DNA of 64,000 nucleotides from Sphingomonas daechungensis (GTDB lineage: Bacteria; Pseudomonadota; Alphaproteobacteria; Sphingomonadales; Sphingomonadaceae), in NCBI RefSeq assembly GCF_014489495.1, contig NZ_CP060780.1:558001-622000 (forward strand), in the 5' to 3' direction. The stretch's first letter is position 1. Every line of letters starts with the position of its first letter. A program made the translations under genes and the position numbers. The notes beneath the pieces were generated by a model. It was not told the DNA's origin, did no database searches, and was given only the letters and a program-made list of their open reading frames with translations. This document shows, one piece after another, positions 1 to 64,000 of the stretch.

Positions 1-1008
1 GTGACGGGTCACCGCAGTAGGCCGCAAAGAGGTTGGCGACGACGCGCTGGGCTTCGGTCCGCACCGGCACGAGAAGTGGTGCATTATAGAGGCGTTTATA
101 CAGGAAGCGCTTGAGCTCCCTCTCCTGATGGCCAAGACTTTCTGAAAAGCCGACGAGCTGCATCCCAGCCGCGCGGACGTCGTCGCAGGTCTCGACACCG
201 GTCGCGGCAATGCGCCTTTGCGTTTCCGAAATCAGGTCTCCGACCATCGTCCCGATCTGATCGCGAACGAGCGCTCGCAGCGCCTTGTCGTCGGACAGGC
301 CAATGAAGCGCCTTGCGATGGCGCCCCAATGCTTGTGCACGATAGGAACCTCGACAAGCTCGTCGAGCCTTAGCAGCCCAGCCCTCACACCATCGTCGAT
401 GTCGTGATTATCGTAGGCGATGTCGTCTGCCACAGCGGCGACCTGCGCTTCCAGCGAAGGCCAGGACCGAAGCTCCAGGTCGAACGCGTCGTTGGCCTCG
501 GCTAGCGCCCAGGTCGGGCGGCGACGGGACCGTTGTGCTTGGCGAGGCCCTCAAGCGCTTCCCAGCTCAGGTTGAGACCGTCGAAACCTGGATAAGGTGC
601 CTCGAGCCGTGTCACGAGGCGAATGCTGTGGGCGTTGTGATCGAAGCCGCCCGCGTCGGCCATCGCCGCCTGCAGGGAGTCCTCGCCGGCATGGCCGAAC
701 GGCGGATGGCCGAGGTCGTGCGCGAGGCACAGCGCTTCGGTCAGGTCCTCATTGAGGCCGAGTGCCCGCGCGATGGTCCGCCCGATCTGCGCTACCTCGA
801 TGCTGTGGGTCAGGCGAACGCGATAATGGTCGCCGTCGGGAGCGACGAAGACCTGTGTCTTGTGACGCAAGCGGCGAAACGAAACCGAGTGGATGATGCG
901 GTCGCGGTCGCGCTGGAAAATGTCGCGAGGCCCGCGCGGACCGGCGTCCACCTCCGGATGGGCCCTGCCGCGCGACGTTGAAGGCTGCGCGGCAAGTTTC
1001 GAGGTCAT
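1..1008 (-). CDS. dgt: Deoxyguanosinetriphosphate triphosphohydrolase-like protein (partial, 3' end outside window)
   Basis: HD-domain dNTP triphosphohydrolase of the Dgt family, which hydrolyses dGTP (or other dNTPs) to the nucleoside and triphosphate in the cytoplasm. The N-terminal half shows the family signature [11 protein letters not shown], then RLTHSIEV and the metal-binding [14 protein letters not shown]. The frame breaks near position 515, after KHNGPVAA. Restoring one C in a CCC run continues as [18 protein letters not shown] and stays open to the window edge, including [15 protein letters not shown], where this family carries its next HD-domain histidine and aspartate residues. 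The start at 1008 overlaps the stop of the upstream SPOR gene as ATGA, which fixes it. The family is certain; the exact substrate is not shown by the sequence. Confidence 0.9.
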
Positions 1009-2316
1009 TCGCCTTGGAGTTTCCTGATCGACTGTCCGGGCTGGTTGGTCCACGTAAAGGCGTCAATGTGAACGGACGCAAGGTCGTCCGCGAAAATACT
1101 TGCTTCGCTGTCGTTGCGGAAGGGACCGATCAGCAACCGTGCCTTGCCGGGCTCCTCGGCAATGTAGCCGCTGATACCCTCGAACAGCTCGCGATTGCGG
1201 GTCTTCAGCCGCACGAACTGGTCCGGAAGAGCGGTTGCATTGGGGCCACTTGCGAGCTGGATCCATAGCCTGCGCGTGGCGCTCGTAGTGCTCGGCGACG
1301 CGCTCGAAGGCTGGCTCACGGTCGTCGGAATCGAGGTCGAAGCGACTTGTACGGTCGATGCGGGCTCACCCGTAGTCGTCGCAGTTTCCCCGGCTGGCTT
1401 TGTCGCCTGCGACAACCACTCCTGAATGGAGGCGATGCGGTCCTCCTCCTCCGGGTCGGCTTTTCGGCGGACTGCTTCGGTGACCGACCGTAGATGATCT
1501 TCACAGGATTGGCCGGGATCGGCGGCGGCGCGGACGCCGTCTGGAGACCGCTAGCACTCGGAAAGATGCCAAGGTTCACTGCCGCGGCCTTCTGATCGGA
1601 ACGCAGAGCCGGCAACTTCTGGAAGAAGTAGGCCATATGCGAAGCCGAGCCAGGCATGGCGCTCTCAATCGCATTCTTTGCGCCTGCTGAATCCCCGGTG
1701 AGAGCCAAAACGAACGCCCGGGTCCGCGCGGCGCCGGCGTCGCCGCGTGCCATCAGCGGCGACAAGGTCGACAACGCGTCCGTCTTGTTGCCCGTAATGG
1801 CGAGGCTCAGTGCAAGGCGGCGGCGCGCTTCGTCGCCGTCGTGTCCGAACAAGGCCGCGCGGTAATCCGCCTGCGCATCGCGGTGACGGCCGAGGAGGTC
1901 GTAGGCGAGGCCGCGATCGCAGCCGATCATCGATTGCGTCGCACCCCGCTGCACCGCGCGGGAGAAATATTGGAGAGCGCCATTCCCGTCGCCCTGCTGC
2001 GCCAAAGCGGCACCGATCCCCGCTTGCGGAAGCGGGCTGGTAGACCAGGCCTCGTCCGCCCTGCCGAAGAATCCCGCAGCCGCCTGCGTGTCGCCGAGGG
2101 CTAGCGCTGCACGACCGGCGCCGATCAAGGCGTCGAAATTTCCGGGACTGGATCCGAGAACCTTCATGTTGCGGGCGAGCGCGTCCGATGGACTTTCCCC
2201 GCCGGTCCCACCGCCACCTGCGCGAGTGCAGCCGTCGGAACAGCAACCATCGCAGGCCCGATTATTGAAAGCGCCGCTGCCGCTAAACCAACGCGACCGG
2301 CCATACCTTTTGCCAT
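1005..2316 (-). CDS. Exported TPR-repeat protein with C-terminal SPOR domain
   Basis: About 437 residues after repair. The start at 2316 opens a signal peptide ([15 protein letters not shown]... ending AALA before QVAV), placing the product in the periplasm or envelope. The middle holds TPR-like helices ([60 protein letters not shown]). A proline/alanine/serine-rich linker leads to a C-terminal SPOR domain ([11 protein letters not shown] ... [21 protein letters not shown]). SPOR domains bind denuded septal glycan, so a place next to ftsZ and a division-related role are reasonable but inferred. Two single-base losses break the frame, near 2196 (separating the signal peptide) and near 1455 (separating the SPOR domain). 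The gene is translationally coupled to dgt by an ATGA overlap. Confidence 0.8.
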
Positions 2317-2377
2317 GGACCCCCATGGCAGATTGGAGCTTGCACAAAGCTTGCTCGCTAGTGGGTTATCGCCAGAC

Positions 2378-2421: not shown

Positions 2422-3821
2422 TTACTGGTTGTTCTGCCGGTTGAGGAAACGCGGGATGTCGATCGGCTCGCGGCGATAGTCGGTCGCCGAATCGTCCTCG
2501 TTCACCTGCGCCTGGGCAGCACCGCGAGCGATGTTCGACATGCGTTCGAATAAGGTGCCGGTCTCGCGAACCTTCGGCTTCTCCTCGATCGGCGCGGCCA
2601 TTTCGGGCATCTCGTCCTCGTCCATCGGCGGAGCGATCGGCGCCGACCCGACGGTCGTGAGCACGTCATCATTGTCGAGAGCGAGTTCATCACCGTCCTC
2701 GATCTCGTCGGTGAGCTCGAGCGTATCCTCGTCCGTCTCCTCCTCCGTCACCATGGTCGGCGTTGGCGTTGGGACGACGGTGGCCGGCGTGATTGTCGCC
2801 GTTGTCGCCGTGCGCGGGAAAGCGAACACCTTGCCCGGCTGCGGCTGGGCGACAGCTTCGGCTTCGATGCCGGTCGCAACCACCGAAACGCGGATACGGC
2901 CGTCGAGGTCGTTGTTGAACGCCGAACCCAGATGATGTTGGCGTCCGGATCGACCAGTTCCTTGATGTGGCTGGCAGCCTCATCGACTTCCATCAGGCGC
3001 ATGTCTTCGCCGCCGGTGATCGAGATGATCACGCCCTTGGCGCCCTTCATGCTTACACCGTCGAGCAGCGGATTCGAGATCGCCTTTTCGGCGGCTTCGA
3101 TCGCGCGATTGTCGCCCGACGCTTCTCCGGTGCCCATCATCGCCTTGCCCATCTCGCCCATCACCGAGCGGACGTCGGCGAAGTCGAGATTGATGAGGCC
3201 GGGCATGACCATCAAGTCAGTGATCCCGCGAACGCCCTGCTGGAGGACCTCGTCGGCCATCTCGAACGCTTCCTTGAAGGTCGTTTCCGAGTTGGCGAGC
3301 CGGAACAGGTTCTGGTTCGGGATCACGATCAAAGTGTCGACGTGCTGCTGCAGCTCCTCGATGCCGGAATCGGCAGAGCGGCCGCGGCGGGCGCCTTCGA
3401 ACGCGAACGGCTTGGTCACCACGCCGACCGTCAGGATGCCGCGGTCGCGAGCAGCCTTGGCAATGACCGGAGCAGCACCCGTGCCGGTACCGCCGCCCAT
3501 GCCGGCAGCGATGAAGCACATGTGAGATCCATCGAGAGCGCGCTCGATATCCTCGATCGTTTCTTCGGCAGCCGCGCGTCCGATCTCGGGCCGCGATCCG
3601 GCGCCGAGGCCCTGCGTAATCTTCAGGCCAAGCTGGATCCGCCGGTCCGCGCTCGACGCGTTAAGCGCCTGCGCATCCGTATTGGCGACGATGAAATCCA
3701 CGCCCTGTACGTCAGCGCGCATCATGTTTGCGACGGCATTACCGCCGGCACCGCCGACGCCAATGACGCTGATCCGCGGCCGAAGTTCGTCGACTTCCGG
3801 CCGGATGAAATCGATGCTCAT
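2422..3821 (-). CDS. ftsZ: Cell division protein FtsZ
   Basis: Tubulin-like GTPase that polymerises into the Z-ring at midcell. About 466 residues after repair. Residues 18-28 are the N-terminal [11 protein letters not shown] loop, the tubulin signature GGGTGTG is at about 109-115, and [17 protein letters not shown] follows the T7 region. A long acidic, proline/threonine-rich linker ends in the conserved tail [13 protein letters not shown] that binds FtsA and other partners. The frame is broken near 2929 because IIWGSAFNN has lost one G (GGGG read as GGG); no strain lives without this region. The ATG at 3821 is preceded by GAAGGGG at good spacing. Unusually, ftsA is not adjacent upstream: a transporter/sulfatase segment of about 4.3 kb intervenes, so ftsZ needs its own promoter. 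Confidence 0.97.
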
Positions 3822-3954: not shown

Positions 3955-5192
3955 AGACGCGCGACGGTTGTTCCCCGTCGAGGTCAACCTGTTCGATTTT
4001 TGGGACGCCCACGGCCCACCAGATCGCACCGATCGCCGCAATGACGGCCGTCAGCACGAAGGCCGCGTTATAGCCGGAGCGCTGGACCACGATGCCGGTG
4101 ACGATCGGCCCGACAATGCCGGACAGATTGCCGATCGCGTTCTGTACGCCGACCCACGTTCCCGACGCGCGCGGTCCCGCGAACATCTGCGCGACGGCGT
4201 AAAGGTTGAGCGAGAGCGATGCCGATGCCGCCCCGCGAGGCAGAGCAGGATGGCGATGGTCACCGCGTCATGTGCGTAAGCGAGCCCAAGGATTGCCAGC
4301 GCGGCAAGCGTCTGGCTGGCGACCATCATCCAGCGCCGGCACAGCGCTTCCGACCGGCCGGAACGGGTCCACCAATCCGAGAAATGCCCGTAGCCCAAAG
4401 CGCACGCGCCCTGCACGGCATAGCCAAGCGTCGCCAACATGGTCATCTCGCCGATCGAAAAGCCGCGCGACTTGGTCAGGAAAAGCGGCAGCCAGGCGAG
4501 CAGGAAGTAGAAGCAGTAATTGCCGAGCGCGTGGACGATCGACATCGACCACAAAGGCCACTTGGACAGCAATTGCCCCAGCGGCACCCGCTGGCCTTCA
4601 TCGCGAAAACCGGTCGTCGGCAGCGCCTTGACCGTCTGCCACCACGGAAGAAGCCAGGCGAGCGTCACGATCCCGAACACGAAGAAGATCGCCTGCCAGC
4701 CCCAGCTCTGAAGGATCAGGCCGCCTGCCAGCGTCCCCACCGCCGGGCCGAGCGCAAGGCCAGTCGCAACCGCGGCATTGGCGACGCCGCGCCGCTCCGG
4801 CTCGACGTGCCGGGCGATGATCTTCGAACTCCCCGGAAAGGAGATGCTCTCGCCGACGCCGAGCATGATCCGCAGCACCAGCAGCGACGTGAAGCCGCCG
4901 GCGAAGCCCATGAGGAAGGTCGAGCCGGCCCAGAGCAGGATGCCGGCCGCCATCAGCTTGTAGACGGAGAAGCGGTCGCACAGCCAGCCGGCGAACATCT
5001 GCACCGGCGCGTAGATCCAGAAGAAGGCCGAGAAGACGACGCCATAGGCTTCCTCGGACAGGCCGAGGTCCGTCTTCATCAACGGCGACGCGATCCCGAT
5101 CGCACCGCGATCGACATAGTTGAGGAACACCGCCGCCCCGAGGAGGAAGATCAACGCCCCGTCGTCCCGCTCCGCGCGCCGCCTGCCATCAT
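3953..5192 (-). CDS. MFS transporter, anion:cation symporter (ACS) type
   Basis: About 413 residues after repair, a normal MFS length with about 12 membrane segments. The first helix carries the ACS-family signature FLNYVDRGAIGIASP, followed by the loop-2/3 motif GWLCDRFSVYK and RIMLGVGESISFPGSSKII. These transporters usually take up organic anions such as sugar acids or aromatic acids with protons. The start at 5192 follows GGGGGAGGGGCAATCC. Two single-G losses break the frame, one near 5166 just after the start and one near 4236 before the last two helices. It diverges from the arylsulfatase gene, so it may import the sulfatase's substrate or product; that pairing is inference. The substrate cannot be read from sequence. 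Confidence 0.85.
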
Positions 5193-5525
5193 GGATTGCC
5201 CCTCCCCCACGCCTCCCGCCAACCCGCGAATGGTCCCAATGTTCGCAGTGACGGGCCTGCTTTTCGCGACGCACCAGTCCTCCACGCACGCGTTGAATCC
5301 AACGCCGAACAGGGAAGCTCGAAGAGACAAGCAGAGCTTTTCCTATTCCGCCAGCGCAATCGTGTTGGGGTGTCTGTTTCAACCCAATCCATGCCCTTGG
5401 ATGTCGCTCGGGAGTATCCCGGATGTCGCCGCACTGACTGCGATCCTAAGTGACTGTCGAGCGCCCCGCGTGATCGAACGTGAGGTGTCGCTGAGGCCGT
5501 AAGAAAAGCGCGGGGAGACGGGGCG
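5193..5525. other. Divergent intergenic region between MFS transporter and sulfatase
   Basis: These 333 bp hold no coding region I can support. The only clear structure is a 13-bp perfect palindrome, CGGGA-GTA-TCCCG, at 5409-5421, about 105 bp before the sulfatase start, which could be an operator. The sulfatase ribosome-binding site GGGGAG is at about 5512-5517. No recognisable -10/-35 pair was found on either strand. Confidence 0.35.
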
Positions 5526-7879
5526 ATGACGATGAATGAATATAAGAGCGGACAGGCATTCTCTGGGGTCATCGGTCGTACTTTCGACGTTTCGAAACCC
5601 GCGTGGCCTGCTCCGAAACGAGCCAAGGAAGGCGCACCGAATGTGCTGTTCATTATTCTCGATGACGTGGGGTTCGGGCAGCTCGGCTGCTTCGGTAGTC
5701 CGATCCGCACGCCGCACATGGACGCATTGGCGGCCGACGGAGTGCGCTACAACAACATGCACACGACGGCGCTTTGCTCGCCCTCACGGGCCTGTTTCCT
5801 GACCGGTCGCAATCATCATTCGAACGCCTTGGCCTGCATTACCGAGGGTTCGACCGGCTACCCGGAAGCAATGGCTCCATGCCGTTGGAAAATGGCATGC
5901 TGTCGGAAATTCTCCTGCAGCATGGCTACAATACCTACGCCATCGGCAAGTGGCACCTCACGCCGACCGAAGCGAGCTCAGCCGCCGGACCCTATGATCG
6001 CTGGCCCTTGGGCGTGGCTTTGAGCGCTTCTACGGCTTCCTCGGTGGCGACACGCACCAATATTATCCGGAGCTCGTCCGGGACAACACGCAGGTTGAAC
6101 CGGAAAAGACGCCGGAAGAAGGTTATCACCTGACGGTCGACCTGGTTGAGAAAGCCAAGGCGATGATCGCGGATGCGAAGCAGGTCGCTCCGAACAAGCC
6201 GTTCTTCATGTACTTCTGTCCGGGCGCCATGCACGCGCCGCATCACGTTCCCCAGGAATGGGCAGACAAATACAAGGGCAAGTTCGACGGCGGCTGGGAT
6301 GTCTATCGCGAAGAGACGTTCGAACGGCAAAAGGCGATGGGGCTCGTGCCAGACAATACGCAGCTGTCTCGCCACGATCCCGACGTACAGGACTGGAACG
6401 AGTTATCAGCGGATGAGCGGCGGCTTTATGCGCGGATGATGGAGGTGTTTGCCGGCTTCCTGGAGCACACCGATCATTACATCGGCGAGCTCATCGCCTT
6501 CCTCAAGGACCTCGGAGAATATGAGAACACCATGATCATGGTGGTGTCCGACAATGGCGCGAGTTCAGAGGGCGGACCGCACGGCTCGGTGAACGAGAAC
6601 AAGTTCTTCAACAACGTGCCCGATAGCCTTGAGCAGAATCTCGCAGCCATCGACACGCTGGGAGGTCCCGAATGGTTCAACCATTATCCCTGGGGCTGGA
6701 CCCACGCCGGCAACACGCCTTTCCGTCGCTGGAAGCGGGAGACCTATCGAGGCGGAGTGTCCGACCCATTGATCGTAAGCTGGCCGAAAGGGATCAAGTC
6801 CCGAGGCGAGGTGCGCACCCAATATTGCCACGGCATCGACATGGTCCCCACTGTCCTTGACGCGATCGGGATCGAGCCGCCCACGCATATCAGGGGCATC
6901 TCCCAATCTCCGATCGAGGGGTTCAGCCTTGCCAGTTCATTCGACCGCGAGGACGCAGAAGCACTGCACGTTACCCAGTATTTCGAGATGTTCGGGCACC
7001 GGTCACTCTATCACGATGGATGGCGAGCCGTTTGCCCCTGGCCGGGAACGTCCTTCGCAGAAGCCGAAGGAAGAGTGTTCGGCACGCCAATTACTTTTGA
7101 CCAGCTGACCGAGTTGGATGCCTATGGCTGGGAGCTTTACAACATCCGCGAAGACTTCGCCGAAACCAATAATCTTGCCGACAAGGAACGCGAACGGCTG
7201 ATCGCCATGATCGGCATGTGGTACGTCGAAGCCGGCAAGTATAACGTCCTGCCAATCGACAGCCGCGGAACGATGCGCTTTCTTGAGGAAAGGCCACAAA
7301 TCGCGCCGCCACGAACACACTACGTTTATTATCCCGGCACGCAGATGGTGCCGACGAACGCAGCGCCTCGCGTCACCAACGTTCCGCATCGGGTGGCCGT
7401 GCACGTGTCAGTTCCCGATGGCGGAGCCAGTGGCGCGCTGTTCACCATGGGTGGCAACGACGGAGGGTTCGTTTTCTACGTTCAAAACGGCCGGCTGACC
7501 TATGGCTACAATTATGTATCCGACCAGCGATTCAAGATTCAATCTGACGAAACGATCCCCGCAGGAGAGCATGTCTTCGGATTCGAATTCACTCCGACGG
7601 GTGCGCCGGATTTCGCCAATGGCAAAGGAGTGCCGGCAACGATCACTTTGTTCGTCGACGGCAAGTCAGTGGGGTCCGGGATCTTCCCGTAACCATTCCC
7701 CTTTCGCTCGGACTGGGGCCGGCATCTGCGTTGGTTCGGATTCGGGTTCGCCCGTCATGACGGATTACGATCCCCCGTTCGCGTTCACGGGAACCATCAA
7801 GAAGGCTTTGGTCGATGTTAGCGGCGAGCCGATCGAGGACAGGGAAGCGCAAGTCCGAATGTACCTCGCTCGGCAGTAG
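5526..7879 (+). CDS. Arylsulfatase (sulfatase family, formylglycine-dependent)
   Basis: Sulfate-ester hydrolase of about 785 residues after repair. The N-terminal metal site NVLFIILDDVGFGQLG is followed by the formylglycine motif CSPSR (LCSPSRACFLTGRN), YAIGKWHLTP, the second-lobe metal site MVVSDNGASSEGG and a lysine/histidine-rich active-site region. After about residue 560 comes a beta-rich C-terminal domain (ALFTMGGNDGGFVFYVQNGR ... FTGTIKKALVDV) typical of the large arylsulfatases. No signal peptide is visible, so it is probably cytoplasmic, which fits import of an intact sulfated compound by the neighbouring MFS carrier (inference). Four single-base losses (near 5863, 6011, 7688 and 7728) split it. 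No sulfatase-maturing enzyme is encoded in the window; one would be needed elsewhere. Confidence 0.9.
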
Positions 7880-7923
7880 CTTGAACTGTCCGATTAGCGA
7901 GGAGCAGTTCACCCATGGCTGCG

Positions 7924-7946
7924 GCGGGCGCGAACCAGGCGCCCGC
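7924..7946 (+). terminator. GC hairpin downstream of sulfatase
   Basis: An 8-bp inverted repeat GCGGGCGC / GCGCCCGC with a 7-nt loop lies 45 bp after the sulfatase stop. It lacks a T-run, so it is only a possible terminator. The rest of 7880-8017 shows nothing else. Confidence 0.3.
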
Positions 7947-8017
7947 GGCGGGCCACGGTTCCTCACCTAACTTTGGATGAGGTTTCAGTCGGCGGTCCCG
8001 TTCGTAAGAACTAGCGT

Positions 8018-8149
8018 ATGACCATCATCAAGATTGCCGTCGCCTGGATCCTGCTCGGCAGCGTTGCCGCTGCGATCACGTTCGGACCCGCCTTGCTCAG
8101 GATCGTCGCGCTTGGGCCGATCAGCCTTGCGGGCGTTCTCGCGTCCTGA
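8018..8149 (+). CDS. Small hydrophobic protein, 43 residues (hypothetical)
   Basis: An ATG-started ORF whose product is nearly all hydrophobic: MTIIKIAVAWILLGSVAAAI, then a short polar gap and IVALGPISLAGVLAS. It would form one or two membrane segments. Its stop lies 4 bp from the convergent ftsA stop. There is no strong ribosome-binding site and no recognised family, so it may be a genuine small membrane protein or chance. Given the frameshift load of this sequence it might also be a fragment of something slightly longer. Confidence 0.35.
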   Translation: MTIIKIAVAWILLGSVAAAITFGPALLRIVALGPISLAGVLAS

Positions 8150-8153
8150 GTAG

Positions 8154-9410
8154 CTAGATCCCGCCCTTCATGGCCGCGATCAGGCGGCCGAACATGCCGT
8201 TGGCGGGCTTCTTCGGGCCGCCCTTGCTTACCGTGAGGTCGCGGATGTCGCCGCTCTGTGACGAGGCCAGGCAGGCGAGGCCGACGAGGGTCGAGAAGGC
8301 CGGGCCGCTGTGGGCATCGGGAAGGCCGGTGAGTTGCCTCGGCCGGCCGACGCGGACGGAGCGGCCGAGGACGCCCTGCATATAGTCGGCGATGTTCTTG
8401 AGCTCGGCGCCGCCGCCGGTCAGCACGACCTGGCGACCGACTGGACCCGTGAAACCGAGGCTCTTCAGCGCCTCGTCGATGCTGGCGGTCAGTTCCTCGA
8501 CGCGCTGGCGAATGACGGTCATCAGCTGCGCGCGGGTGATGCGCATCGGGTCGACGCCGTCTTCCGTGCCCATCTGCCGCGCCTCGATCATTTCGTGATT
8601 GTCGCGCGGGCTCGTCATCGCCGATCCGTAGAAGCACTTCAGCCGCTCGGCATCGCGACGCTGCACGCCGAAGGCACAGGCGATGTCGTCGGTAATATCC
8701 TTGGCCCCAAGTGGGATCGAGCGCAGGCCGAGGAGCATCCCGCCCGCATGAAGAGAGACGTTGGTCACTTCGGCACCGAGCTCGACCAGCGCAACGCCAA
8801 GGTCGCGCTCGTCCTCCGTAAGGCAGGCGAGCGCCGCCGCGACGGGCGACGCGACGATTGTCTTCACGCCGAGATGGGCGGAGCGGATCACATAGTCGAT
8901 GTTGCGCAGCGGCGCGGGGTCGGCGGCGACGACGTGGATATCGACGCCAAGCCGGTCGGCGTGAAGGCCGAGCGGGTTCTTGACGCCCTCGACGCCGTCG
9001 ATGGTGTAGAGCGCCGGGTGCGCGTGAAGAACGACCTGGCCGTTGCGGTCGATCGCTCCGCGGCCGCCCATTAGAAGCTCGTCGATGTCGGTCTGCTCGA
9101 CCTGATGGCCGCCGAGCTCGACCTCGACATTGGCAAGGTCGCTCGACAGGCCGCCGGCGCCGAAGCTGGCCCAGACGTCCTCGATGGTGAGGCCCGACAT
9201 GCGCTCGGCAAGCTCGACGGCTTCGCGGACGGCATGCTCGCTCGCTTCCATGTCGGTCACGTAGCCGCGCTTGACGCCGCGGCTCTCGCGCTGACCGGTG
9301 CCGAGCACCTGCAGGCGGCCGTCGTCGGTCAGCGTGCAGATCAGCGCCCCGACCTTCGAGGAACCGATATCCAGCGCTGCAATCAAAGGCTGATCGACGG
9401 GTGCTGCCAC
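8154..9410 (-). CDS. ftsA: Cell division protein FtsA
   Basis: Actin-like ATPase that tethers FtsZ filaments to the membrane and recruits late divisome proteins. 418 residues and unbroken. The phosphate-1 loop region ALDIGSSKVGALIC is at about 11-24, the SHS2 insert (subdomain 1C) follows, phosphate 2 is represented by LVELGAEVTNVSLHAGG, and the adenosine motif is VVLTGGGAELKNI. The C-terminus GMFGRLIAAMKGGI is the amphipathic membrane-targeting helix. The gene sits 9 bp after the repaired ftsQ stop as the last gene of the dcw run. In most relatives ftsZ comes next on the same strand; here the following gene is the unrelated sulfatase in opposite orientation. Confidence 0.96.
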   Translation of the reverse strand: MAAPVDQPLIAALDIGSSKVGALICTLTDDGRLQVLGTGQRESRGVKRGYVTDMEASEHAVREAVELAERMSGLTIEDVWASFGAGGLSSDLANVEVELGGHQVEQTDIDELLMGGRGAIDRNGQVVLHAHPALYTIDGVEGVKNPLGLHADRLGVDIHVVAADPAPLRNIDYVIRSAHLGVKTIVASPVAAALACLTEDERDLGVALVELGAEVTNVSLHAGGMLLGLRSIPLGAKDITDDIACAFGVQRRDAERLKCFYGSAMTSPRDNHEMIEARQMGTEDGVDPMRITRAQLMTVIRQRVEELTASIDEALKSLGFTGPVGRQVVLTGGGAELKNIADYMQGVLGRSVRVGRPRQLTGLPDAHSGPAFSTLVGLACLASSQSGDIRDLTVSKGGPKKPANGMFGRLIAAMKGGI

Positions 9411-10318: not shown

Positions 10319-11254
10319 CTACCCTTCTTTCTCGTGAGCGCTTCCTCGATCAGACGCTCGACCAGTTCCCCGTAACTGATGCCGCACACCTTCGCTTGCT
10401 CCGGCACCAGGGACAAGGGGTCATTCCGGGTTGAGTGTTGACTTCCAAAAGAAAAATGCCGGCTTCGCCCTGTTCGTCGTCCCAGCGGAAGTCGGACCGC
10501 GACGCGCCGCGGCAGCCGAGCAACTTGTGCGCCTTGGCGGCCATGTCCTTCATCGATTGAGCGATGTCGTCGGGGATCTGCGCGGGCAGACATGCTCTGT
10601 CAGGCCGTCGGTATATTTGCTGTCGTAGTCGTAGAAGCCGACCTTCGGCTTTAGCTCGGTCACGGCGAGCGCCTCGTCGTTGAGCACGGCGACGGTGAGT
10701 TCGTGACCCTTCACGAACGGCTCGGCGAGAAGCGTATCAAAGTGCCTCCACGGTCCCTCGACATCGCGGCCGATCGGGCTGCCATAATTGCTCTCGTCAG
10801 TGACGATGGCGACGCCGACCGACGAACCCTCGTTGACCGGCTTCAGCACGTACGGCCGCGCAATCGGGTCGCCGCTGTAGAGGCTCTCACTCTCGACGAT
10901 CGTCCCCGCCGGCATGCGCACGCCGTGCGGGACCAGCACCATCTTGGTCAGCTCCTTGTCGATCGCGATGACCGAGGCTTCGAGCCCGCTGTGGGTGTAG
11001 GCGATGCCCATCAGGTCGAGCATGCCCTGGACCGTGCCGTCCTCGCCCGGCGTACCGTGGAGCGCATTGAAGACGACGTCGGGCTTCAGCTCTTTCAGCT
11101 TGGCGGCGACGTCGCGGTCCATGTCCAGTTCGATCACGTTCGACCAGCCGCGCTCACGGATCGCATTGGCGACGCCGCGCCCGCTCGTCAGCGAAACCTC
11201 GCGCTCGGACGACCAGCCGCCCATCAACACAACGACGCGAAAATCCTTGTTCAT
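10319..11254 (-). CDS. ddl: D-alanine--D-alanine ligase
   Basis: ATP-grasp ligase that makes the D-Ala-D-Ala dipeptide added by MurF. About 312 residues after repair. It opens with [19 protein letters not shown], has [19 protein letters not shown], the ATP-grasp [16 protein letters not shown] loop, and the metal-binding end [21 protein letters not shown]. Three single-base losses (near 10588, 10421 and 10322) scatter it over three frames. The ATG at 11254 overlaps the murB stop (ATGA), and the repaired stop falls 4 bp before ftsQ. The order murB-ddl-ftsQ-ftsA is the standard dcw order. Confidence 0.94.
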
Positions 11255-12143
11255 TCCCTGCCGATCCGCTGGATTTCCCATTCAAGGGTAATGCCGGAGT
11301 TTTCCAACACGCGGCGGCGGACTTCCTCGCCCAGCGCCTCGATGTCGGCGCTGGTCGCGCTACCGAGGTTGAGCAGGAAGTTGCAATGCTTTTCCGAGAC
11401 TTGGGCGTCGCCCATCGTCAGCCCACGGCAACCGGCCGCATCGACGAGCACCCAGGCCTTGTGGCCGGGCGGATTCTTGAACGTCGAGCCGCCGGTGCGG
11501 CTACGGAGCGGCTGGGATTCCTCGCGAGCGCGGGCGATGGCATCCATTTCCGCGCCGATGGCTTCTGGCTTGCCGGGTGAGCCGCGGAAGGTGGCTTCGA
11601 CGACCACTGCTCCTTCAGGCAGTTCGCTGTGGCGGTAGGTGTAACCGAGCTTTTCGAGCGGCAGGGTTTCGATGCTGCCGTCGCGCATCGCGACGCGAGC
11701 TTCGACGAGAATGTCCTGAACCTCGCGGCCGTAAGCGCCGCCGTTCATTCGAACGAAACCGCCAACCGTGCCGGGGATTCCGCGCAGGAACTCGAGGCCG
11801 GCAATGCCTGCATCGCGCGCAGTCGAAGAGACGAGGATACCGCTCGCCCCGCCCCGCAACGAAGGGTCACGTCGTCGACCTTGTCGATCTTCGAAAATGC
11901 TTTGCCGAGGCGGACCACGACACCCGGAACGCCCGCGTCGCGGACGATCATGTTGGAGCCGAGACCGAGCGCCATCACCGGCACTTCGGGATCGAGATCG
12001 CGCAGGAACTGGACCAAATCGTCCTCGTCCTTCGGCTCGAACAACCACTGCGCTGCGCCGCCGCTCTTGAACCACACCAACGGCGCCAGCGGCGCATTTT
12101 CGGTGAGCCTGCCTTGAACCTGCGGGAGCGTGTCGACGCTCAC
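11251..12143 (-). CDS. murB: UDP-N-acetylenolpyruvoylglucosamine reductase
   Basis: FAD- and NADPH-dependent reductase that converts UDP-GlcNAc-enolpyruvate to UDP-MurNAc in the cytoplasm. About 297 residues after repair. The FAD-binding region contains [16 protein letters not shown], then [18 protein letters not shown] with the conserved RxNxGAYG-like loop. The catalytic serine lies in [13 protein letters not shown] (GSTFKNP), and [19 protein letters not shown] closes the fold. The GTG start at 12143 overlaps the murC stop as GTGA. One lost base near 11855 (a GGGG run) shifts the frame after LRCGAG. Confidence 0.95.
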
Positions 12144-13555
12144 TTGCTCGCCCTGACCTTGGTCAGGCAGTCGCCGAGCGAGGCGGCCCACTTGGTGATG
12201 TCGCCCGCGCCCATGCAGATGATGAGGTCGCCCGGCGCCGCGAGATCGCGAAGGCCGGCGCACAGGTCGTCGAGGTCGCTGACCGTGCGGACCATGCGGT
12301 GGCCGTGCGCGCGAAGACCCTCGGCCAGCGCCTCGGAATCCGTGCCCTCGATCGGCTGCTCGCCCGCCGCGTAGACGGGCGTCACGAACACGATGTCGGC
12401 GTTATTGAAGGCGTTCTGGAAGTCTTCCATCAAGTCGTGAAGACGCGAGTAGCGGTGCGGCTGCACGACCGCGATGACCCGCTGGTCGGCGCTTTCCCGG
12501 GCCGCCGACAACACCGCGCGAATCTCGACCGGATGGTGCGCGTAATCGTCGATGATCACGCAGCCATCGACTTCCCCGACCTTGCTGAAGCGCCGCTTCA
12601 CGCCATCGAAGCGGGCGAAGCCTTCGCGGATCTGGTCTTCGGAAATGCTAAGCTCCAGCGCGACCGCTACGGCGGCGAGCGCATTCTGGACGTTGTGCCG
12701 CCCGGGCATCGGCACGGCGAGGCCCTCGATCGTATGCCTCTCGCCATCCCGGCCCGAAACCACGACGTCGAACTGGCTCCCGGCCGGTCCCGCGACCTGC
12801 ATGTTATCGGCACGCAAATCCGCCAGCGCGGAGAATCCATAGGTCACGATCCGCCGGTCGCGAATGCGGCCGATGACGTTCTGCACCTCCGGATGATCCA
12901 CGCACATCACGGCGAGGCCGTAGAAGGGCACGTTCTCGATGAATTCGCAGTAGGCCTTCTTGACCTCTTCGAACCCGCCGTAATGCTCGAGATGTTCGGG
13001 ATCGATGTTGGTGACGACCGCGATTGTCCCGTCGAGGCGGAGGAAGCTGCCGTCGCTCTCGTCGGCTTCGACCACCATCCAGTCGCTCTTGCCCAGCCGG
13101 GCGTTGGATCCGTAACGATTGATGATGCCTCCGTTGATCACGGTCGGGTCGAGCCCGCCCGCATCGAGCATCGCCGCGATCATCGACGTCGTGGTCGTCT
13201 TCCCGTGCGTGCCGGCGACCGCGATGGTCTTCTGCATCCGCATCAGCTCGGCGAGCATTTCGGCGCGCTTCACGATCGGCAGGCGACGCTCGACGGCGGC
13301 TTCGACCTCAGGATTGCCGCGGCTGACCGCGGAGGAGATCACGATCACCGCCGCGTCGCCGAGGTTCTCGGCCTTCTGGCCGATCATGATCGGAATGCCG
13401 AGCTTGCGCAGCCCTTCGACAATATAACCTTCAGCGAGGTCGGAGCCCTGAACTTTGTAGCCGACCTTGTGCATTACCTCGGCGATGCCGGACATGCCGA
13501 TGCCGCCGATGCCGACGAAGTGGATGGTGCCGATGTCGGTGCCCAAAGCCTTCAC
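12140..13555 (-). CDS. murC: UDP-N-acetylmuramate--L-alanine ligase
   Basis: First Mur ligase: adds L-Ala to UDP-MurNAc with ATP. 471 residues and unbroken. The N-terminal UDP-binding Rossmann motif is [17 protein letters not shown] (residues 11-27), the ATP P-loop is GTHGKTTTT from 115, and the central domain has [12 protein letters not shown]. The C-terminal domain carries the [16 protein letters not shown] signature. A GTG start at 13555 overlaps the murG stop (GTGA), and the gene's own stop overlaps the murB GTG. It is one of the few genes in this cluster that reads through intact. Confidence 0.97.
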
Positions 13556-36252: not shown

Positions 36253-36256
36253 GTTG

Positions 36257-36341: not shown

Positions 36342-36346
36342 GGATA

Positions 36347-48368: not shown

Positions 48369-49282
48369 GTGACCGCCGCTTCCGATATCGTGCCCGACAG
48401 CGAACGCCGTGGGTTGATCGGCGCTCTCCCCGCTCGCCTGAGACCGCTGGCGTCCCTGATGCGGATCGATCGGCCGATTGGGACGTGGCTGCTCTACTGG
48501 CCATGCGCGTGGAGCGTGGCGCTGGCGGGCGTCGACAGGCACTGGAGCCTGCTGTTGTGGTTCTTCCTCGGCGCCTTTGCGATGCGGAGCGCCGGCTGCG
48601 TCTACAACGACATTGTCGACAGGAACCTCGACAAGTCGGTCGAGCGCACGCGCCTTCGTCCCCTCGCAAGCGGGCGGACCTCGGTCGGCGCCGCGTGGGC
48701 GCTGATCGCAACGCTTTGTCTGCTGGGACTGGTTGTGGTGGCCCAGTTGAATGTCACCGCGGGTATCATTGCATTCGTTAGCATTGCGCCTGTCGCGGCC
48801 TATCCTTTCATGAAACGCATCACTTGGTGGCCGCAGGCGTGGCTCGGCCTCGTCTTCTCCTGGGCGCTCTGGTCGGGTGGCCGGCCGTGCGCGGGACGCT
48901 CGATCTTCCCGCGCTGCTGCTGTGGTTGGGAAGCATCGCCTGGGTCGTCGGCTACGACACGCTCTATGCCATCCAGGATATCGAGGATGACGCGCTGGTT
49001 GGCGTGAAGTCGTCGGCACGGCGGCTCGGCCACAAGGCAGCGCAGGGCGTCGCGGTTTTCTATGCAATCGCGGTGCTATTCTGGGGCGCCGCGATTTGGT
49101 CGGTCCGCGCGGACTGGCTCGCGCTCGTCGCATTGGCTCCCGCCGCGATCCACCTCGCCAGCCAGGCGCGCCGGGCCGATTCCAAGGACGGGGACTTGGC
49201 GCTCAAGCTGTTCCGGTCCAATCGGACCGCAGGCTTCCTTGTTTTCCTCGGGCTGCTGGTCGTCGGCCTTTCCAGCCGCTAG
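48369..49282 (+). CDS. ubiA: 4-hydroxybenzoate polyprenyltransferase
   Basis: Membrane prenyltransferase that attaches the polyprenyl chain to 4-hydroxybenzoate in ubiquinone synthesis. About 304 residues after repair with eight or nine helices. The first Asp-rich motif is YNDIVDRNLDKSVERTRLRP (NDxxD...RTRxRP), preceded by LMRIDRPIGTWLLYWPC. The second is YAIQDIEDDALVGVKSSARR, after the break. One G lost near 48869 shifts the frame after LVFSWG. GTG is the start at 48369. Confidence 0.95.
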
Positions 49283-51070: not shown

Positions 51071-51096
51071 CAGTCGTCTCCCGAGCGTTCAATGCT

Positions 51097-52062: not shown

Positions 52063-52134
52063 CGCCGCGCGACATAGGAAGTCGTCGCTCGGTTGCCACT
52101 GTTTTTCGCCCGGACTGCTTCCTATAGTGGTCCC

Positions 52135-53215
52135 ATGACCATCTTTTCGGGGCTCGTCCCCAGGGCGCGCGCCCTCTTCAGCGACAATAAAGGTCCATGG
52201 GGTCCGTCGAGCGGCGGAGAGCCGGAGGACGAACCGTCTCCGAAAGGCCCGTGGGGCGAGACTCCCTCCAAGGGCAAGCGCGCGACGGGATCGTCGCGAC
52301 AAACCGCCTCCCTCGACGAATTCCTTCGCCGGGGACGCGAACGCTTCGGCGGCGGCGGCGGCGGCTATTCTGGCCGGCCGATCGGCTCCCTCATCTTCTG
52401 GGCGATCGGCGCTTTGGTGCTCGTCTGGTTGCTGTTCACCTCGACCCACGTGATCTCGCCAAGCCAGCGCGGCGTCGTTTCCCGGTTCGGGCGCTACACC
52501 ACTACCCTCGGCCAGGTGTGGGCTTCACCCTCCCCTCGCCAATCGACCGCGTGAAGAAGATCGACGTCGAGAACATCCGCTCGTTCGACCTGGGTTCGAC
52601 CGGCGATAACGACCTGATGCTGACCGGCGACCAGAACTTGCTGGATATCGCTTATTCGGTCCGTTGGAACATCCGGACGCCGGAGCTCTATTTGTTCCAG
52701 CTTGCGGATCCCGACGAAACGACCAAGCAGGTGGCGGAAAGCGCAATGCGCGCGGTCGTCAGCCGGGTCAGCCTGAACGACGCCATGGGTGACAAGAGGG
52801 CAGAGATCGAAACCCAGGTCACCGAGCTGATGCAGCGTATCCTCGACAGCTATCGCTCGGGCATCCAGGTGCAGGGCATCGCAATCAAGCAGGCCGATCC
52901 GCCCGACGCCGTCAACGACGCCTTCAAGGAAGTCACGGCGGCCCAGCAGGACGCCCAGTCCTACGTCAACCAGGCCGGGCCTATGCCCTTCAGCTCACTG
53001 CCAAGGCGCAGGGCGAGGCGACGGCGTTCGACAAGGTCTACGAGCAGTACAAGCTCGCGCCCGAAGTCACCCGCCGCCGCATGTATTACGAAACGATGGA
53101 GCAGGTGCTATCCAAGGTCGACAAGACGATCATCGAGGCGCCCGGAGTGACGCCGTATCTTCCACTGCCGGAGCTTAAGAAGTCGCAGCCGCAGCAGCAG
53201 GAGACGCAGCGATGA
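52135..53215 (+). CDS. hflK: FtsH protease activity modulator HflK
   Basis: SPFH-family membrane protein that with HflC cages and modulates FtsH. About 360 residues after repair. A Gly/Pro-rich N-terminus (RERFGGGGGGYSGRP) precedes the membrane span LIFWAIGALVLVWLLF, then the SPFH domain (VVSRFGRYTTTL, DRVKKIDVENIRSFDLGS, LDIAYSVRWNIRTPELYLF). The C-terminal helix has AYALQLTAKAQGEA. Two losses near 52513 (after TTTLG) and near 52979 (after VNQA) break it. The stop overlaps the hflC ATG as ATGA. Confidence 0.95.
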
Positions 53216-57794: not shown

Positions 57795-59810
57795 TGGCAA
57801 CAGTGTCGGGAAAGAGTGGCATTCAGGCCGTGAAGGAGCTCACGCTCCGAGGGATCATCCTGGGTGCGATCATTACCTTGGTGTTCACTGCGGCGAACGT
57901 TTACCTTGGCCTTAAGATCGGACTTACCTTCGCCACCTCGATCCCGGCCGCCGTCATCTCGATGGCCGTGCTTCGGTTCTTCTCGGATTCCACGATCCAG
58001 GAAAACAATATCGTCCAGACGATCGCTTCGGCGGCGGGCACGCTGTCGGCGATCATCTTCGTGCTGCCCGGACTGATCATGGTCGGCTGGTGGACCGGCT
58101 TCCCTTATTGGCTGTCGGTCGCCGTCATCGCCATCGGCGGCATCCTCGGCGTCATGTATTCCGTGCCGTTGAGACGCGCACTCGTCACTGGCACTGACCT
58201 CCCCTACCCGAAGGTGTCGCCGCGGCGGAAGTGCTGAAGGTCGGCGCAGGCGTCGGCGGCGCCGAAGAGAACAAGCGCGGCCTGCGCATGATCGTGTGGA
58301 GCTCGATTGCAGCAGCCGGCTATGCGGCTCTCGCCCAGACCAAGCTCCTCGCCGCCGACGCGGCCAAGGCCTTCAAATTCGGAAGCGGCGCCACCGCCGT
58401 TTCGACCAGCCTGTCGATGGCGTTGATTGGCGTTGGACACCTCGTCGGCCTCGCCGTCGGCATCGCCATGTTCGTCGGGCTGCTGATCAGCTGGGTCTAT
58501 CTCGTCCCGCACTACACCGCGATTTCGGCTGCAGCGCCTGGGGTGGAGATCGGCGACTTCGTCAACGATGTGTTCCGCAACAAGGTTCGATTCATCGGTG
58601 CAGGCACGATTGGCGTCGCAGCGATCTGGACGCTGTTGCGGATCATCGGCCCAATCGTTTCCGGCATCCGTGCCGCCCTCGTCGCCAACAGCGCTCGCAA
58701 GGCCGGCCGCGGCGACGAGCTTCCGCTGACCGAGCGCGACCTGCCGATCGGCATCGTCGGCGGCACGATCCTGCTATCGATGATCCCGATCGCATTCCTG
58801 CTCTATGCTTTTGCCAACACCCCGCCGATCTCATCGGAGCCGGCCCTGACCCTCAGCATCAGCATCGTCTACATCCTGGTCATCGGCGTCATCATCGCGG
58901 CGGTCACCGGCTACATGGCCGGCCTGATCGGTGCTTCGAACAGCCCGGTCTCCGGCGTCGGCATCCTTGCGGTGCTCGGTATTTCCGTGATCCTCGCCTT
59001 GCTGTTCCCGGGCGTAACTGGCGACCTCACCAAGTCGCTCGTCGCCTTCGCACTCTTCGTGACGGCATTGATCTTCGGCATAGCAACGATCGCCAACAAC
59101 AACTTGCAGGACCTGAAGACCGGCCAGCTCGTCGACGCGACGCCATGGCGGCAGCAGGTCGCACTGGTTCTCGGCGTGATCTTCGGAGCTTTGGTAATCC
59201 CGCCGATTCTCGACCTGCTCAATTCGGCGTTCGGGTTCCAGGGCGCGCCCGGCGCGAAGGACACGTCGCTGGCCGCACCGCAGGCCGCGCTGATCTCGGC
59301 CATCGCGCAAGGCGTGCTCGGCGGCGACCTCGACTGGGGCCTGATCGGATGGGGCGCGGTGATCGGGGCCATCTGCGTCGCGGTCGACGAGATTCTTCGA
59401 GCGACCAAGAAGGGTTCGCTGCCGCCGCTGGCGGTCGGCATGGGCATCTACCTGCCGATGGCTTTGACCCTGCTGATCCCGATTGGAGCCCTGCTGGGCC
59501 ACCTCTATGAAAAGTGGGCAGCGCGGAGCCAGAACCCGAGTTCGCGCAGCGGCTTGGTGTACTGATGGCCACCGGCTTGATCGTCGGGGAAAGCCTGTTC
59601 GGAGTGCTCTTCGCCGGAATCGTCGCCGCCACCAACAGCGACGCACCGATGGCCCTCGTCAGCGAGAATGCATGGGCGGTGCCGATTGGCATCCTCGTCT
59701 TCGCGGCGGCGATCGCTTGGCTTTATTCCAAGACGGTCTCGGACGCCCGCTCCGCACCGGCGGTGCCGGAAGACCATGTGATTCCGCCTCACGAGATCAC
59801 GCCGCGATAG
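57794..59810 (+). CDS. OPT family oligopeptide/metal transporter
   Basis: About 672 residues after repair with some 15 membrane helices. OPT motifs include LRGIILGAIITLVFTAANVY, IPAAVISMAVLRFFSDSTIQ, IVQTIASAAGTLSAIIFVLP, GTDLPYPEGVAAAEVLKVG and AGLIGASNSPVSGVGI. Members import oligopeptides or metal chelates such as iron-siderophore or nicotianamine complexes. Losses near 58208 and near 59521 break it. The GTG start at 57794 overlaps the NTF2-like stop, so the two genes are co-translated. Confidence 0.9.
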
Positions 59811-59811
59811 G

Positions 59812-60446: not shown

Positions 60447-61452
60447 CTAGCGCCCGAGCACTTCTCGGCGAAGCTCTGCAGGGCCAAGCGCTGGAGCGCC
60501 TTGCTCCGCCTTCCGGATCAGCTCGACAACCTTGCGATTGATCGGCGCATCCATCCCGAGCCGCTCAGCGAGCGCAACCAGCTCGCCGTTGATGTAGTCG
60601 ACCTCAGTCTTACGGCCGCCGACGATATCGTCGTTCATCGACGACCGTGCTTTCTCATCAATCTTCCATTTGCGCAGGAAGACGTTTTTGAAGAGCCAGT
60701 TCGGTGATCCGATCACGTAGGGCAGGACCGCTGGCGAAACCGCGGCAATTTTCGCCGGCTGGATCCCGGCTCGCTTAAGCAGGGCCAGCCCTTCATGCTG
60801 CGAAGCCGCAACCACTCGCCGATAGTCGCGCTCGCCAAATTCGCCGAGCAGTGTCCGGCCGGACAGCGCGTTGACCGCATTGTTGAGGTTGATGAGCAGC
60901 TTCCCCCAGGCGACACCCGTCATGTCATCGGACAGCTTCAGCGGCGCTGGTCCATCGGCGACAATCGCAGCCAGTTCGCGAATCTCCGGGCGGTCCTCTG
61001 CGAACAAGGCCCCTGCAACCGCCTTGTGGAAGCGGCCCTCCCGAGATGGACGACATTGTACTGAATGATCCCGCGAGCGATCTTGAAACGCCCGCCGAGC
61101 TCGCGCCGGAGCACGTCCAGATTGCTGATCCCGTTCTGGAAGCTGACGACGAGCGTGCCGTCCCGGGCATGATCCGCGATCTGCTGGGCCGCTTCTGCAG
61201 TTGCGCCGCTCTTCACCGTCAGTGCGATGATGTCGGCATCCGCGAGAACCGATGCGTCGGTGCGGTAGTCGACGTCGGAGAGATGGGCCTTCCACCCTGC
61301 GAAATCGCTCAGCGACAGGCCGTGTTCGGCAATCTCTGCGCCAAAGCTCTTTCGGCCGAGGAAGCTGACGGGAACGCCGGCCGCTTGCCAGCATCCCCGA
61401 TGAAGCAGCCGACCGAGCCGGCGCCGTGGACGACGACCCTAGCCGCGGCCAC
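60447..61452 (-). CDS. panE: 2-dehydropantoate 2-reductase family protein
   Basis: NADPH-dependent reductase of the ketopantoate reductase family (pantothenate synthesis). About 335 residues after repair. It begins [14 protein letters not shown] (Rossmann GAGxxG), then [20 protein letters not shown] and [20 protein letters not shown]. The C-terminal domain has [18 protein letters not shown] (catalytic Lys and Asn) and [14 protein letters not shown]. Two losses near 61396 and near 61043 break it. The GTG start at 61452 lies inside the end of queF, 13 bp before its stop. Paralogues with other substrates exist, so pantothenate assignment is probable, not certain. Confidence 0.86.
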
Positions 61453-61887
61453 GATAGGGCTGAACCCCTGGTCCGGCAGCCACAATCCCTCGGGTGGCGG
61501 GCCGCTCTGCCAGAAGACATCGATCGGCATGCCGCCGCGCGGATACCAGTAGCCGCCGATGCGCAGCCACTGCGGCTTCATCTCGTCCACCAGGCGCTGG
61601 CCGATGCCGACCGTCACGTCCTCGTGAAAGCCGCAATGATTGCGGAAGGACCCGAGGAACAACTTCAGGCTCTTGCTCTCGACGATCGTCTTAGCGGGCG
61701 CATAGTCGATGACCAGATGCGCGAAGTCGGGCTGTCCGGTTACCGGGCAGAGAGACGTGAATTCCGGCGCTGCGAACCGCACCAGGTAGAGCGTGCCCGA
61801 CCGTGGGTTGGGCACGTAATCGAGTTGCGCCTCTTCCGGCGACGAAGGCAGCGGCGCGGCTTTGCCGAGATGCGTCGTTTCGACCAT
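61439..61887 (-). CDS. queF: NADPH-dependent 7-cyano-7-deazaguanine reductase (preQ0 reductase)
   Basis: Reduces preQ0 to preQ1 for queuosine in tRNA. About 149 residues after repair, the short unimodular type. The catalytic Cys is at 47 in [16 protein letters not shown], with Asp54. Substrate binding is at [20 protein letters not shown] (the E(S/L)K(S/A)xK-like helix). One G lost near 61464 hides the end [12 protein letters not shown]-stop at 61439. It overlaps panE by 13 bp. Confidence 0.94.
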
Positions 61888-61950: not shown

Positions 61951-63650
61951 ATGCTGAGAACCGTGATCCTGTCCGGGCTGCTGGTCGTGGCGACCGCAGC
62001 AGGGGCAGAACCGCCGCCTTTACTCAAAACCTCGGATGCGGAGGCCATCGCCAGCCAAGTGTCCGGAGGCGCAGCGAAGCGGACGGTAGAGGCGCTCTCC
62101 CTCAACCACCGCATGCGCGGATCTCAGGGCTATCGACGCGCTGCTGAACTGATCCGCAGTCGGCTCGAGAACTATGGTTTGGCCGAAGCGAGCATCATGG
62201 CTTTGCCCGCCGACGGGAAAATCTTCTACGGGACCCAGCGCTCGCGACCCGCCTGGAACGCGACCTTTGCCGAGCTCTGGGAGCAGAAGCAGGACGGCGG
62301 GCGCTGGATCGATGCGGAACGCATTGCATCGTGGAAGGACCAGCCCATCACGCTTGCGCAGGACAGCGTCAGCGGGACGGCCCACGCTCCGTTGGTCGAT
62401 GTCGGCGTGGGGACGGCCGACAGCGATTATGCCGGCAAGGACGTCCGCGGGAAATTGGTGCTGACTTCCTCGCAACCGGAGGCGGTCGCGAAGCTGGCCG
62501 TCACGAAATATGGCGCCGCAGGCATCGTCTCCTGGGCGCAGAACCAGAAATCCGCGTGGTGGGGCGAGGACGAGAGCCTGATCCGGTGGGGCCATCTCGA
62601 CACGTGGAAGGACCCACATTCGCCTTCATGATCTCCCCTGCCCGAGCACACGCCTGGCAGGAACGTTTGCAGAAGGGCGAGGTCGTCCAGCTGCGGGCGG
62701 CGGTGCAGGCGGGACGATCACCCGGAGAATATCTGATCCCGACAGCAGTGATCCCGGGCCGCGACCGCGCGAAGGAAATTCTCTACTCCTGCCACCTCGA
62801 CCACCCTTCGCCCGGCGCGAACGACAATGCCAGCGGATGCGCCGGCATTCTCGAGGTTGCACGCACCCTCAATCGGCTTGTGAAGGAAGGCCGCCTGCCC
62901 CAGCCGGAGCGGACCCTGCGCTTCATCTGGCCGTGCGAAGTCGAGTGCACGATCTCGCTCCTCAACGCGCGTCCGGAGTTCGCTGAGAGGACGCTGGCGG
63001 CCATTCATCTCGACATGATCGGCGGCCGGACCGAAACGACCAAAGGCGTCCTGCGCGTCGAAGGCTCGCCTCCCAGTTCGCCGAGCTTGGTCGACGATGT
63101 CGCGTTCGCGCTGACCCGCTGGGTCAATCGGCAGACCTTTGCGTTCGCCGATAGCGGCTCGGGCGATTGGCCGCTGATCGACCCGGAGGGCACCAGGGAC
63201 GCGCTGCAGGCGAAGGTCGGCGGCTTCTCCGAAGGCAGCGACCATCAGGTCTGGGCAGAAGGAAGCTGGCGGACCCCGATCATCTATGTGTCGGATTGGC
63301 CGGACCGCTACATCCACACCAACCGCGACGTCCCCGAGAACCTCGACGCGACGAAAATGAAGCGGGCGATCTTCATTGCTGCTGCGTCCGGCTGGTATCT
63401 CGCGAACGTCGGGCAGGACGAGGTCCCGGTTCTAGCGGCTGCCATGGAAAATGAAGCGCTGGAGCGGAAAGCCGCCGCCCGTCGTTCGCCCAATCCGAAT
63501 GCAGTGCAATTCGCACAGGCAGCGGAAACCGAAGAGGCGGCGTCGCTCGCCCGTTTCGGCCTGGTAGGGCCGCAGAGTACAGCCGACGCGCCCCCTGCGC
63601 ACATCGAAGGCGTCGTCTATCGCCGCAAGCCAAACCCCAAGGGCCGATGA
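61951..63650 (+). CDS. Exported M28-type zinc aminopeptidase with PA domain
   Basis: About 566 residues after repair. Signal peptide MLRTVILSGLLVVATAAGA. A PA-like insert (VDVGVGTADSDYAGKDVRGK, AAGIVSWAQNQ) precedes the M28 metal centre: HLDHPSPGANDNASGCAGIL (His and bridging Asp), PCEVECTIS (Glu), LDMIGGRTET (Asp) and FSEGSDHQVW (final His). One base lost near 62614 breaks it between the PA and peptidase parts. The product should cleave N-terminal residues of peptides in the periplasm. It overlaps the next small gene as ATGA. Confidence 0.85.
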
Positions 63651-63901
63651 CCGGCTTCGGCTATTCCTGGCTCGACGATCAGCTTGAGAAGGCCAAGCTT
63701 CCCCGCCCGAAGCTGCTCGATCGAGAGGCCCCTCGCGACGGGCCGAGCTTCGCCTACGAGGCACTTAATCTCGTCGACGGTAACCGAAGCGTTCAGGACA
63801 TTGGCAACCAACTGACCGCTACCGTCGGGCCGGTGCCGATCGCCGAAGTTGCGGACTTCCTCGCGACCCTGCAGCGCGTCGGCCTGCTGGAGGCTCGCTG
63901 A
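63647..63901 (+). CDS. Small winged-helix-like protein, 84 residues (companion of the M28 peptidase)
   Basis: Starts in an ATGA overlap with the peptidase stop and ends overlapping the next ATG (TGATG). The second half, YEALNLVDGNRSVQDIGNQL with PVPIAEVADFLATLQRVGLL, looks like a small winged helix of the kind found at the C-terminus of some M28-like peptidases (DUF4910 type) and in PqqD-type carriers. It may be a separated domain of the upstream enzyme. No catalytic residues. Function unknown. Confidence 0.6.
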   Translation: MTGFGYSWLDDQLEKAKLPRPKLLDREAPRDGPSFAYEALNLVDGNRSVQDIGNQLTATVGPVPIAEVADFLATLQRVGLLEAR

Positions 63902-64000
63902 TGGACGATCTGGTCTCGACCGAATGGCTGGCCCAGAACCTGGGCAAGGCGGACGTCGCTGTCGTCGATTCCACCTGGCATATGCCCGCGACGAAGCGCA
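63901..64000 (+). CDS. sseA: Rhodanese-type sulfurtransferase, probable 3-mercaptopyruvate sulfurtransferase (partial)
   Basis: Only the first 33 codons are in the window: MDDLVSTEWLAQNLGKADVA followed by VVDSTWHMPATKR. This matches the N-terminus of SseA-type two-domain rhodaneses, which transfer sulfur from 3-mercaptopyruvate. The catalytic Cys lies beyond the window. The start overlaps the previous stop by one base. Confidence 0.75.
   Translation, partial: MDDLVSTEWLAQNLGKADVAVVDSTWHMPATKR

Follow-up and report, generated by a model that had tools for sequence, protein, structure and literature searches.

Almost certainly, the genes that appear broken in the 64,000-nucleotide stretch of the Sphingomonas daechungensis genome analysed here (positions 558001-622000 of contig 1, hereafter the window) owe their breaks to under-calling of G/C homopolymers in the assembly and not to biology. 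The genome amounts to 3.0 Mb in two contigs, with a completeness of 86.6, and the window holds the mraZ-to-ftsZ cluster of division and cell wall genes among approximately 50 gene rows; these are named from Pfam matches, while some names, including that of murE, reflect what we take the order of the cluster to imply. In total, 41 single-base losses in 24 genes are supported, 37 of them in 23 of the 50 gene rows and four (two firm, two likely) in a sulfatase gene. An assembly error is favoured because bases are also missing from the genome's own 23S ribosomal RNA (rRNA), because a comparison of DNA alone yields an excess of gaps in the window and because the chance of loss rises with run length. 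The phenomenon belongs to a familiar class of sequencing error and is not a real feature. An earlier note on this DNA, which had reported some 50 losses in about 30 genes, was right in both observation and interpretation, only the supported counts being slightly lower.

Agreed losses in the window and in control congeners

Reading frames were tested by aligning the open reading frame (ORF) proteins of congeners to the window with our own protein-to-DNA aligner, in which a missing and an extra base carry equal cost. An event was considered agreed when the same event was found in at least two relatives. Ten congeners were used, five of them in the first round; clusters of mixed event type were excluded (three in the window, one in G068, two in G029 and six in G048), and losses seen in one relative only, such as those at 5164, 42258 and 62617, were left uncounted. 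The five-congener round gave 24 agreed clusters, corresponding to 23 places (33942 and 33945 being identical), every one a loss. With ten congeners, 37 agreed losses and one agreed gain were found in the 51.7 kb to which two or more relatives could be aligned, so that the earlier claim that repair always adds and never removes a base is true of agreed events. The sole gain, at 51071, was found with two relatives and is located at a gene start.

The same test was run with congeners as targets, for all of the ten except G037 and G052. For G068, 63.8 kb gave one gain but no agreed loss; G029 gave no agreed events in 49.8 kb, and five further congeners a single agreed event in 163 kb, namely a loss in the ftsZ gene of G007. 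The latter (L093, approx. position 4806) lies at a different place from that in the ftsZ of the window, and G007 is otherwise without agreed losses in 80 kb. Thus, an agreed-loss rate similar to that of the window was looked for in these clean congeners and not seen. Comparison of 37 losses in 51.7 kb with one in 113.7 kb yields a Fisher P of approx. 5e-18, the value of one being a cautious entry for G068 and G029, which had none. Since the controls are nearly free of agreed losses, the frame test does not itself create the breaks. Events supported by a single relative (in the window, 26 of +1, nine of -1 and four of two bases; in G068, 34, five and nine, respectively) are the background of the method, because the control shows similar counts.

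All seven coordinates given as examples in the earlier note were recovered by the frame test at most 10 bases away: 2929 in ftsZ at 2926; 16912 and 15935 in murD at 16910 and 15934, the second backed by two alignments only; 20024 and 19817 in murE at 20025 and 19825; and 24393 and 24330 in rsmH at 24397 and 24320. At the ftsZ site the G run numbers three bases as printed and four in five aligned relatives. The three sites proposed for a 'DUF4350' gene were found at 25498, 25692 and 25883, and two of the three proposed for ddl at 10414 and 10581, the third not being found by this test. For the sulfatase, two of four proposed sites are firm (approx. 5862 and 6008) and two likely (approx. 7681 and 7716, with losses in four of seven homologues). 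The raw-frame fusions of murE to murF (18299-21127) and of murD to ftsW (14705-16804) are indeed present in the ORF list.

DNA-only comparison, run length and the rest of the genome

When the DNA of the window was aligned directly with that of G068, isolated one-base gaps numbered 43 on the window side and seven on the G068 side; at G/C runs of at least three bases the figures are 29 and zero. With other relatives the ratios of gaps in the window to gaps in the relative were 14:1 (G029), 10:5 (G037), 12:2 (G052) and 40:24 (G048, itself faulty as described below), and between clean pairs of congeners one-base gaps numbered 0 to 13 per row. This protein-free test recovers most sites of the protein-based one and places some gaps outside the aligned genes, for example at 27356 and 35343, so that, with the 23S rRNA, both coding and non-coding sequences are affected.

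Sorted by inferred true length, 17 of 229 four-base G/C runs (approx. 7%) and 14 of 38 five-base runs (37%) are printed short, rates that are slightly low since the denominators include all runs of the window while detection was limited to the 53.3 kb aligned to G068. Lost runs are split 22:20 between G and C. G/C runs of five occur at 39 per 100 kb in the window, 49 elsewhere in the same genome (280 kb sampled) and 54-116 in the ten congeners; runs of at least six are absent from the 64 kb of the window, as compared with 13 in the 280 kb from elsewhere in the genome and 120 in 720 kb of the nine congeners other than G048. No depletion of A/T runs was found in the window. When the loss rates are applied to the run counts of G068, approx. 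47 losses per 64 kb are expected, near the estimate of the earlier note, a consistency check only, since the rates were drawn from these very data, with two assumed values among them (0.5% for three-base runs, 90% for runs of at least six). A flanking-base motif was considered and dropped: a C precedes 12 of 17 lost and 96 of 212 kept four-base runs, a lean that is not repeated in five-base runs (five of 14 lost, 12 of 24 kept). ORF length (mean, 447 amino acids in the window, 365 in 14 other stretches of the genome, 372-561 in the ten congeners) was set aside as a weak measure of breakage that mixes it with gene length.

The genome's own 23S rRNA (L121, 3635-6418) lacks nine bases and has none extra with respect to G010, G012 and G006, and at five of the nine sites a C or G run on which the relatives agree is simply shorter. 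Losses in this gene are beyond the reach of any explanation based on translation. Deletions far exceed insertions throughout (37:1 among agreed events in genes, 9:0 in the 23S rRNA). An Rfam search of the genome found no 16S rRNA, the letters at that place being N. The rpoB region (L138) yielded four agreed losses in 20 kb, in genes other than rpoB and rpoC, which hold few long G/C runs. Thus, the fault is not confined to one locus, being found in the rRNA region, in the rpoB region and, as fewer G/C runs of at least five bases, in the 14 sampled stretches of 20 kb. Among these 14, L134 (G000:C1:1600001-1620000) is the richest in G/C runs of four (107) and five (23) bases and has the lowest mean ORF length (168 amino acids), and L141 (187 amino acids) and L140 (235) likewise have low means.

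A second assembly of the genus, G048 (completeness 90), carries the same fault. In its corresponding region (C1:1880001-1960000, L178-L181), 32 agreed losses and one gain were found in 60.4 kb, with seven more losses in its rpoB region (L200). The window, G048 and G068 are about equidistant, at 80-81% nucleotide identity. Only one of the 36 window sites that can be placed on G048 coincides with a loss there, and joint inheritance of the breaks was rejected; conversely, 22 of the 32 sites of G048 can be placed on the window.

Under-calling and its alternatives

If the breaks arise by under-calling, the consensus would often print G/C homopolymers one base short, with a probability increasing with the true length of the run; a loss within a gene would shift the frame and lead gene callers to split or fuse genes that are, presumably, ordinary and intact. 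The 23S losses, which form the strongest test, the dependence on G/C run length, the depletion of long G/C but not of A/T runs, the clean G068 and the different sites lost in G048 support this cause, with which nearly all that was tested can be explained. The earlier note had proposed it from the load in essential genes, an argument that agrees with the other tests. We infer that the source was long reads, likely nanopore, with thin coverage or no polishing. As described in PMC9262707 and PMC8011154, nanopore consensus sequences retain gene-breaking homopolymer indels, which short-read or homologous polishing removes, and the unpolished assemblies reported there resemble the present one in their single-base homopolymer deletions that break frames assembly-wide; they differ from it in that losses in the window are nearly all at G/C runs, with A/T runs undepleted. 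According to PMC9262707, R10.4 chemistry at approx. 40-fold coverage resolves such short runs, so that thin coverage or an older chemistry would be needed here. PMC12007338 reports false deletions that fragment genes, chiefly after runs of four to five, and inflate pseudogene counts, and the assembly described there is like the present one in showing mostly false deletions at such lengths. That base modification of native DNA makes G/C runs read short, and so accounts for the G/C preference, has a slim chance of being correct; the bases flanking the lost runs showed no motif, though the sample is small (17 four-base and 14 five-base runs).

Several observations weigh against under-calling in this simple form. 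Deletions in the nanopore assembly of PMC12007338 are about twice as frequent at A/T as at G/C runs, whereas window losses favour G/C, so that the fit to nanopore data is imperfect. Between six and nine of the 43 DNA gaps are not at a G/C run of at least two bases. G048, with a similar load of losses, keeps 11 G/C runs of at least six bases in 80 kb. Furthermore, no agreed loss was found across the 8.5 kb of rpoB and rpoC in this genome, only 1.7 to 2.9 being expected there. The nine losses of the 23S rRNA exceed the 4.2-4.5 expected from the run-length rates, an excess that is unexplained, and four of the nine sites, though touching a G/C run, fall within or next to segments that vary among the relatives. 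Because of this excess and these four sites, the run-length model is incomplete.

Real decay, in which a lineage-wide load of slippage events, due for example to a mismatch-repair mutator, would have turned the genes into pseudogenes, is very improbable. A mutator would raise slippage mutations in G/C runs, in keeping with losses that track run length, and the sole MutS_V domain found (G000:C1:1314930-1315451, L213), a further point against under-calling, lies in an open frame of 565 amino acids. This is short for MutS, and the open frame is itself probably another frame break. Against decay, ftsZ, murB, murD, murE, murG, ftsW and the 23S rRNA are struck together, the 23 broken gene rows align across their breaks at 60-97% identity to relatives, and 44 of the 50 rows are without an in-frame stop. 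Stops number 14 among 19,401 codons and are confined to six rows, which look like over-extended ORFs of the relatives or a shadow ORF. A mutator should yield gains too, but a single gain accompanies the 37 losses, and the losses in G048 are at different sites. Thus, the association of stops with indels of both signs that would mark decaying pseudogenes was not found.

Programmed or tolerated frameshifting, by which the ribosome or RNA polymerase would restore the frame at the runs, has practically no chance of being the explanation. The same direction of correction is required by 37 of the 38 agreed breaks, as such a mechanism would have it, but the untranslated 23S rRNA has its nine losses, G068 and G029 have no breaks at the sites and all but one of those that can be placed are unshared with G048, so that neither conservation of the sites nor restriction to translated genes was found; besides, run counts alone forecast a load of this size. 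An alignment artefact, with breaks made by chance, poor homologues or over-extended ORFs, accounts for most single-relative events (those of +1 being 26 in the window and 34 in G068) but has hardly any prospect of accounting for the agreed losses, which number 37 in the window and none in the identically treated G068 and G029 and which largely recur, with the same excess, when proteins are left out.

With G/C under-calling as the cause, the result is a quality warning and not a discovery: the assembly needs polishing, and gene calls, pseudogene counts, fusions and essential-gene losses derived from this genome or from G048 are unreliable until that is done. The completeness of 86.6, where most congeners in few contigs reach 99-100, may be partly due to broken genes. 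Comparison of the 23S rRNA offers a quick, frame-independent test for the same fault.

The broken genes of the window

The genes with supported losses are listed with their coordinates and strand; the positions of the losses are approximate.

5-1329, minus strand, HD-domain phosphohydrolase gene: loss near 518 (6 alignments); Pfam HD and HD_assoc on the G068 orthologue.
1008-2316, minus strand, gene without Pfam match: losses near 1464 (4 alignments) and 2207 (3).
2425-3821, minus strand, ftsZ: loss near 2926 (7 alignments); Pfam Tubulin and FtsZ_C.
3959-5192, minus strand, MFS transporter gene: loss near 4235 (3 alignments), that near 5164, in one relative, being uncounted; Pfam MFS_1.
5553-7876, plus strand, sulfatase gene: losses near 5862 and 6008 (firm), 7681 and 7716 (likely); Pfam Sulfatase on the printed middle frame.
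10324-11281, minus strand, ddl: losses near 10414 (6 alignments) and 10581 (7); Pfam Dala_Dala_lig.
11254-12191, minus strand, murB: loss near 11854 (5 alignments); Pfam MurB_C.
13555-14732, minus strand, murG: loss near 14164 (6 alignments); Pfam Glyco_transf_28 on the G010 orthologue.
14720-15927, minus strand, ftsW: loss near 15599 (6 alignments); Pfam FTSW_RODA_SPOVE.
15932-17298, minus strand, murD: losses near 16910 (6 alignments) and 15934 (2, at the murD/ftsW boundary); Pfam MurD-like_N and Mur_ligase.
19705-21127, minus strand, murE: losses near 19825 (9 alignments) and 20025 (8); Pfam Mur_ligase_M and Mur_ligase_C.
23576-24536, minus strand, rsmH (mraW): losses near 24320 and 24397 (7 alignments each); Pfam Methyltransf_5.
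24536-25022, minus strand, mraZ: losses near 24593 and 24853 (7 alignments each); Pfam MraZ.
25330-26043, minus strand, the gene earlier called 'DUF4350': losses near 25498, 25692 and 25883 (5 alignments each); the Pfam match of the G007 orthologue is ABC_transp_aux.
32151-33382, plus strand, DUF418 gene: loss near 33207 (6 alignments).
33888-35241, minus strand, der (EngA GTPase): losses near 33945 and 34946 (6 alignments each); Pfam MMR_HSR1 twice and the KH_dom-like domain of EngA.
36359-38849, plus strand, ligD: losses near 36542 and 37198 (5 alignments each).
38809-40997, plus strand, penicillin-amidase-family gene: loss near 40735 (5 alignments).
48369-49279, plus strand, UbiA-family prenyltransferase gene: loss near 48864 (6 alignments).
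49292-50633, plus strand, PmbA/TldD metallopeptidase gene: losses near 50324 and 50593 (6 alignments each).
52087-53209, plus strand, Band 7 protein gene: losses near 52510 and 52977 (7 alignments each).
57827-59789, plus strand, OPT transporter gene: losses near 58211 and 59539 (5 alignments each).
60450-61452, minus strand, ApbA/PanE reductase gene: losses near 61038 and 61397 (3 alignments each).
61442-61887, minus strand, QueF-like gene: loss near 61463 (6 alignments).

For the sulfatase gene, outside the reach of the ten congeners, the test drew on homologues in other genera of the family, seven of the 11 loci tried being usable (L202, L203, L211 and L212 gave no usable alignment). The two firm losses appear with all seven, at 41-46% identity. 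At the two likely sites, four homologues indicate two losses, and the others one two-base loss, one single gain and one alignment ending; the reading as a single gain gives a frame change equal to that of two losses. The region (5193-8156) lies between the MFS transporter gene and ftsA and is uncovered by the syntenic stretches of the ten congeners. Of 199 genomes of the family that were searched, 84 had a match, with no congener among them (at least three congeners were searched), and the best homologues, at 74-76%, sit in other genera; from these sequence matches, the gene has possibly been acquired. Finally, genes with Pfam Ku and LigD domains, the bacterial end-joining pair, are adjacent at 35371-38849, and ligD carries two of the base losses.

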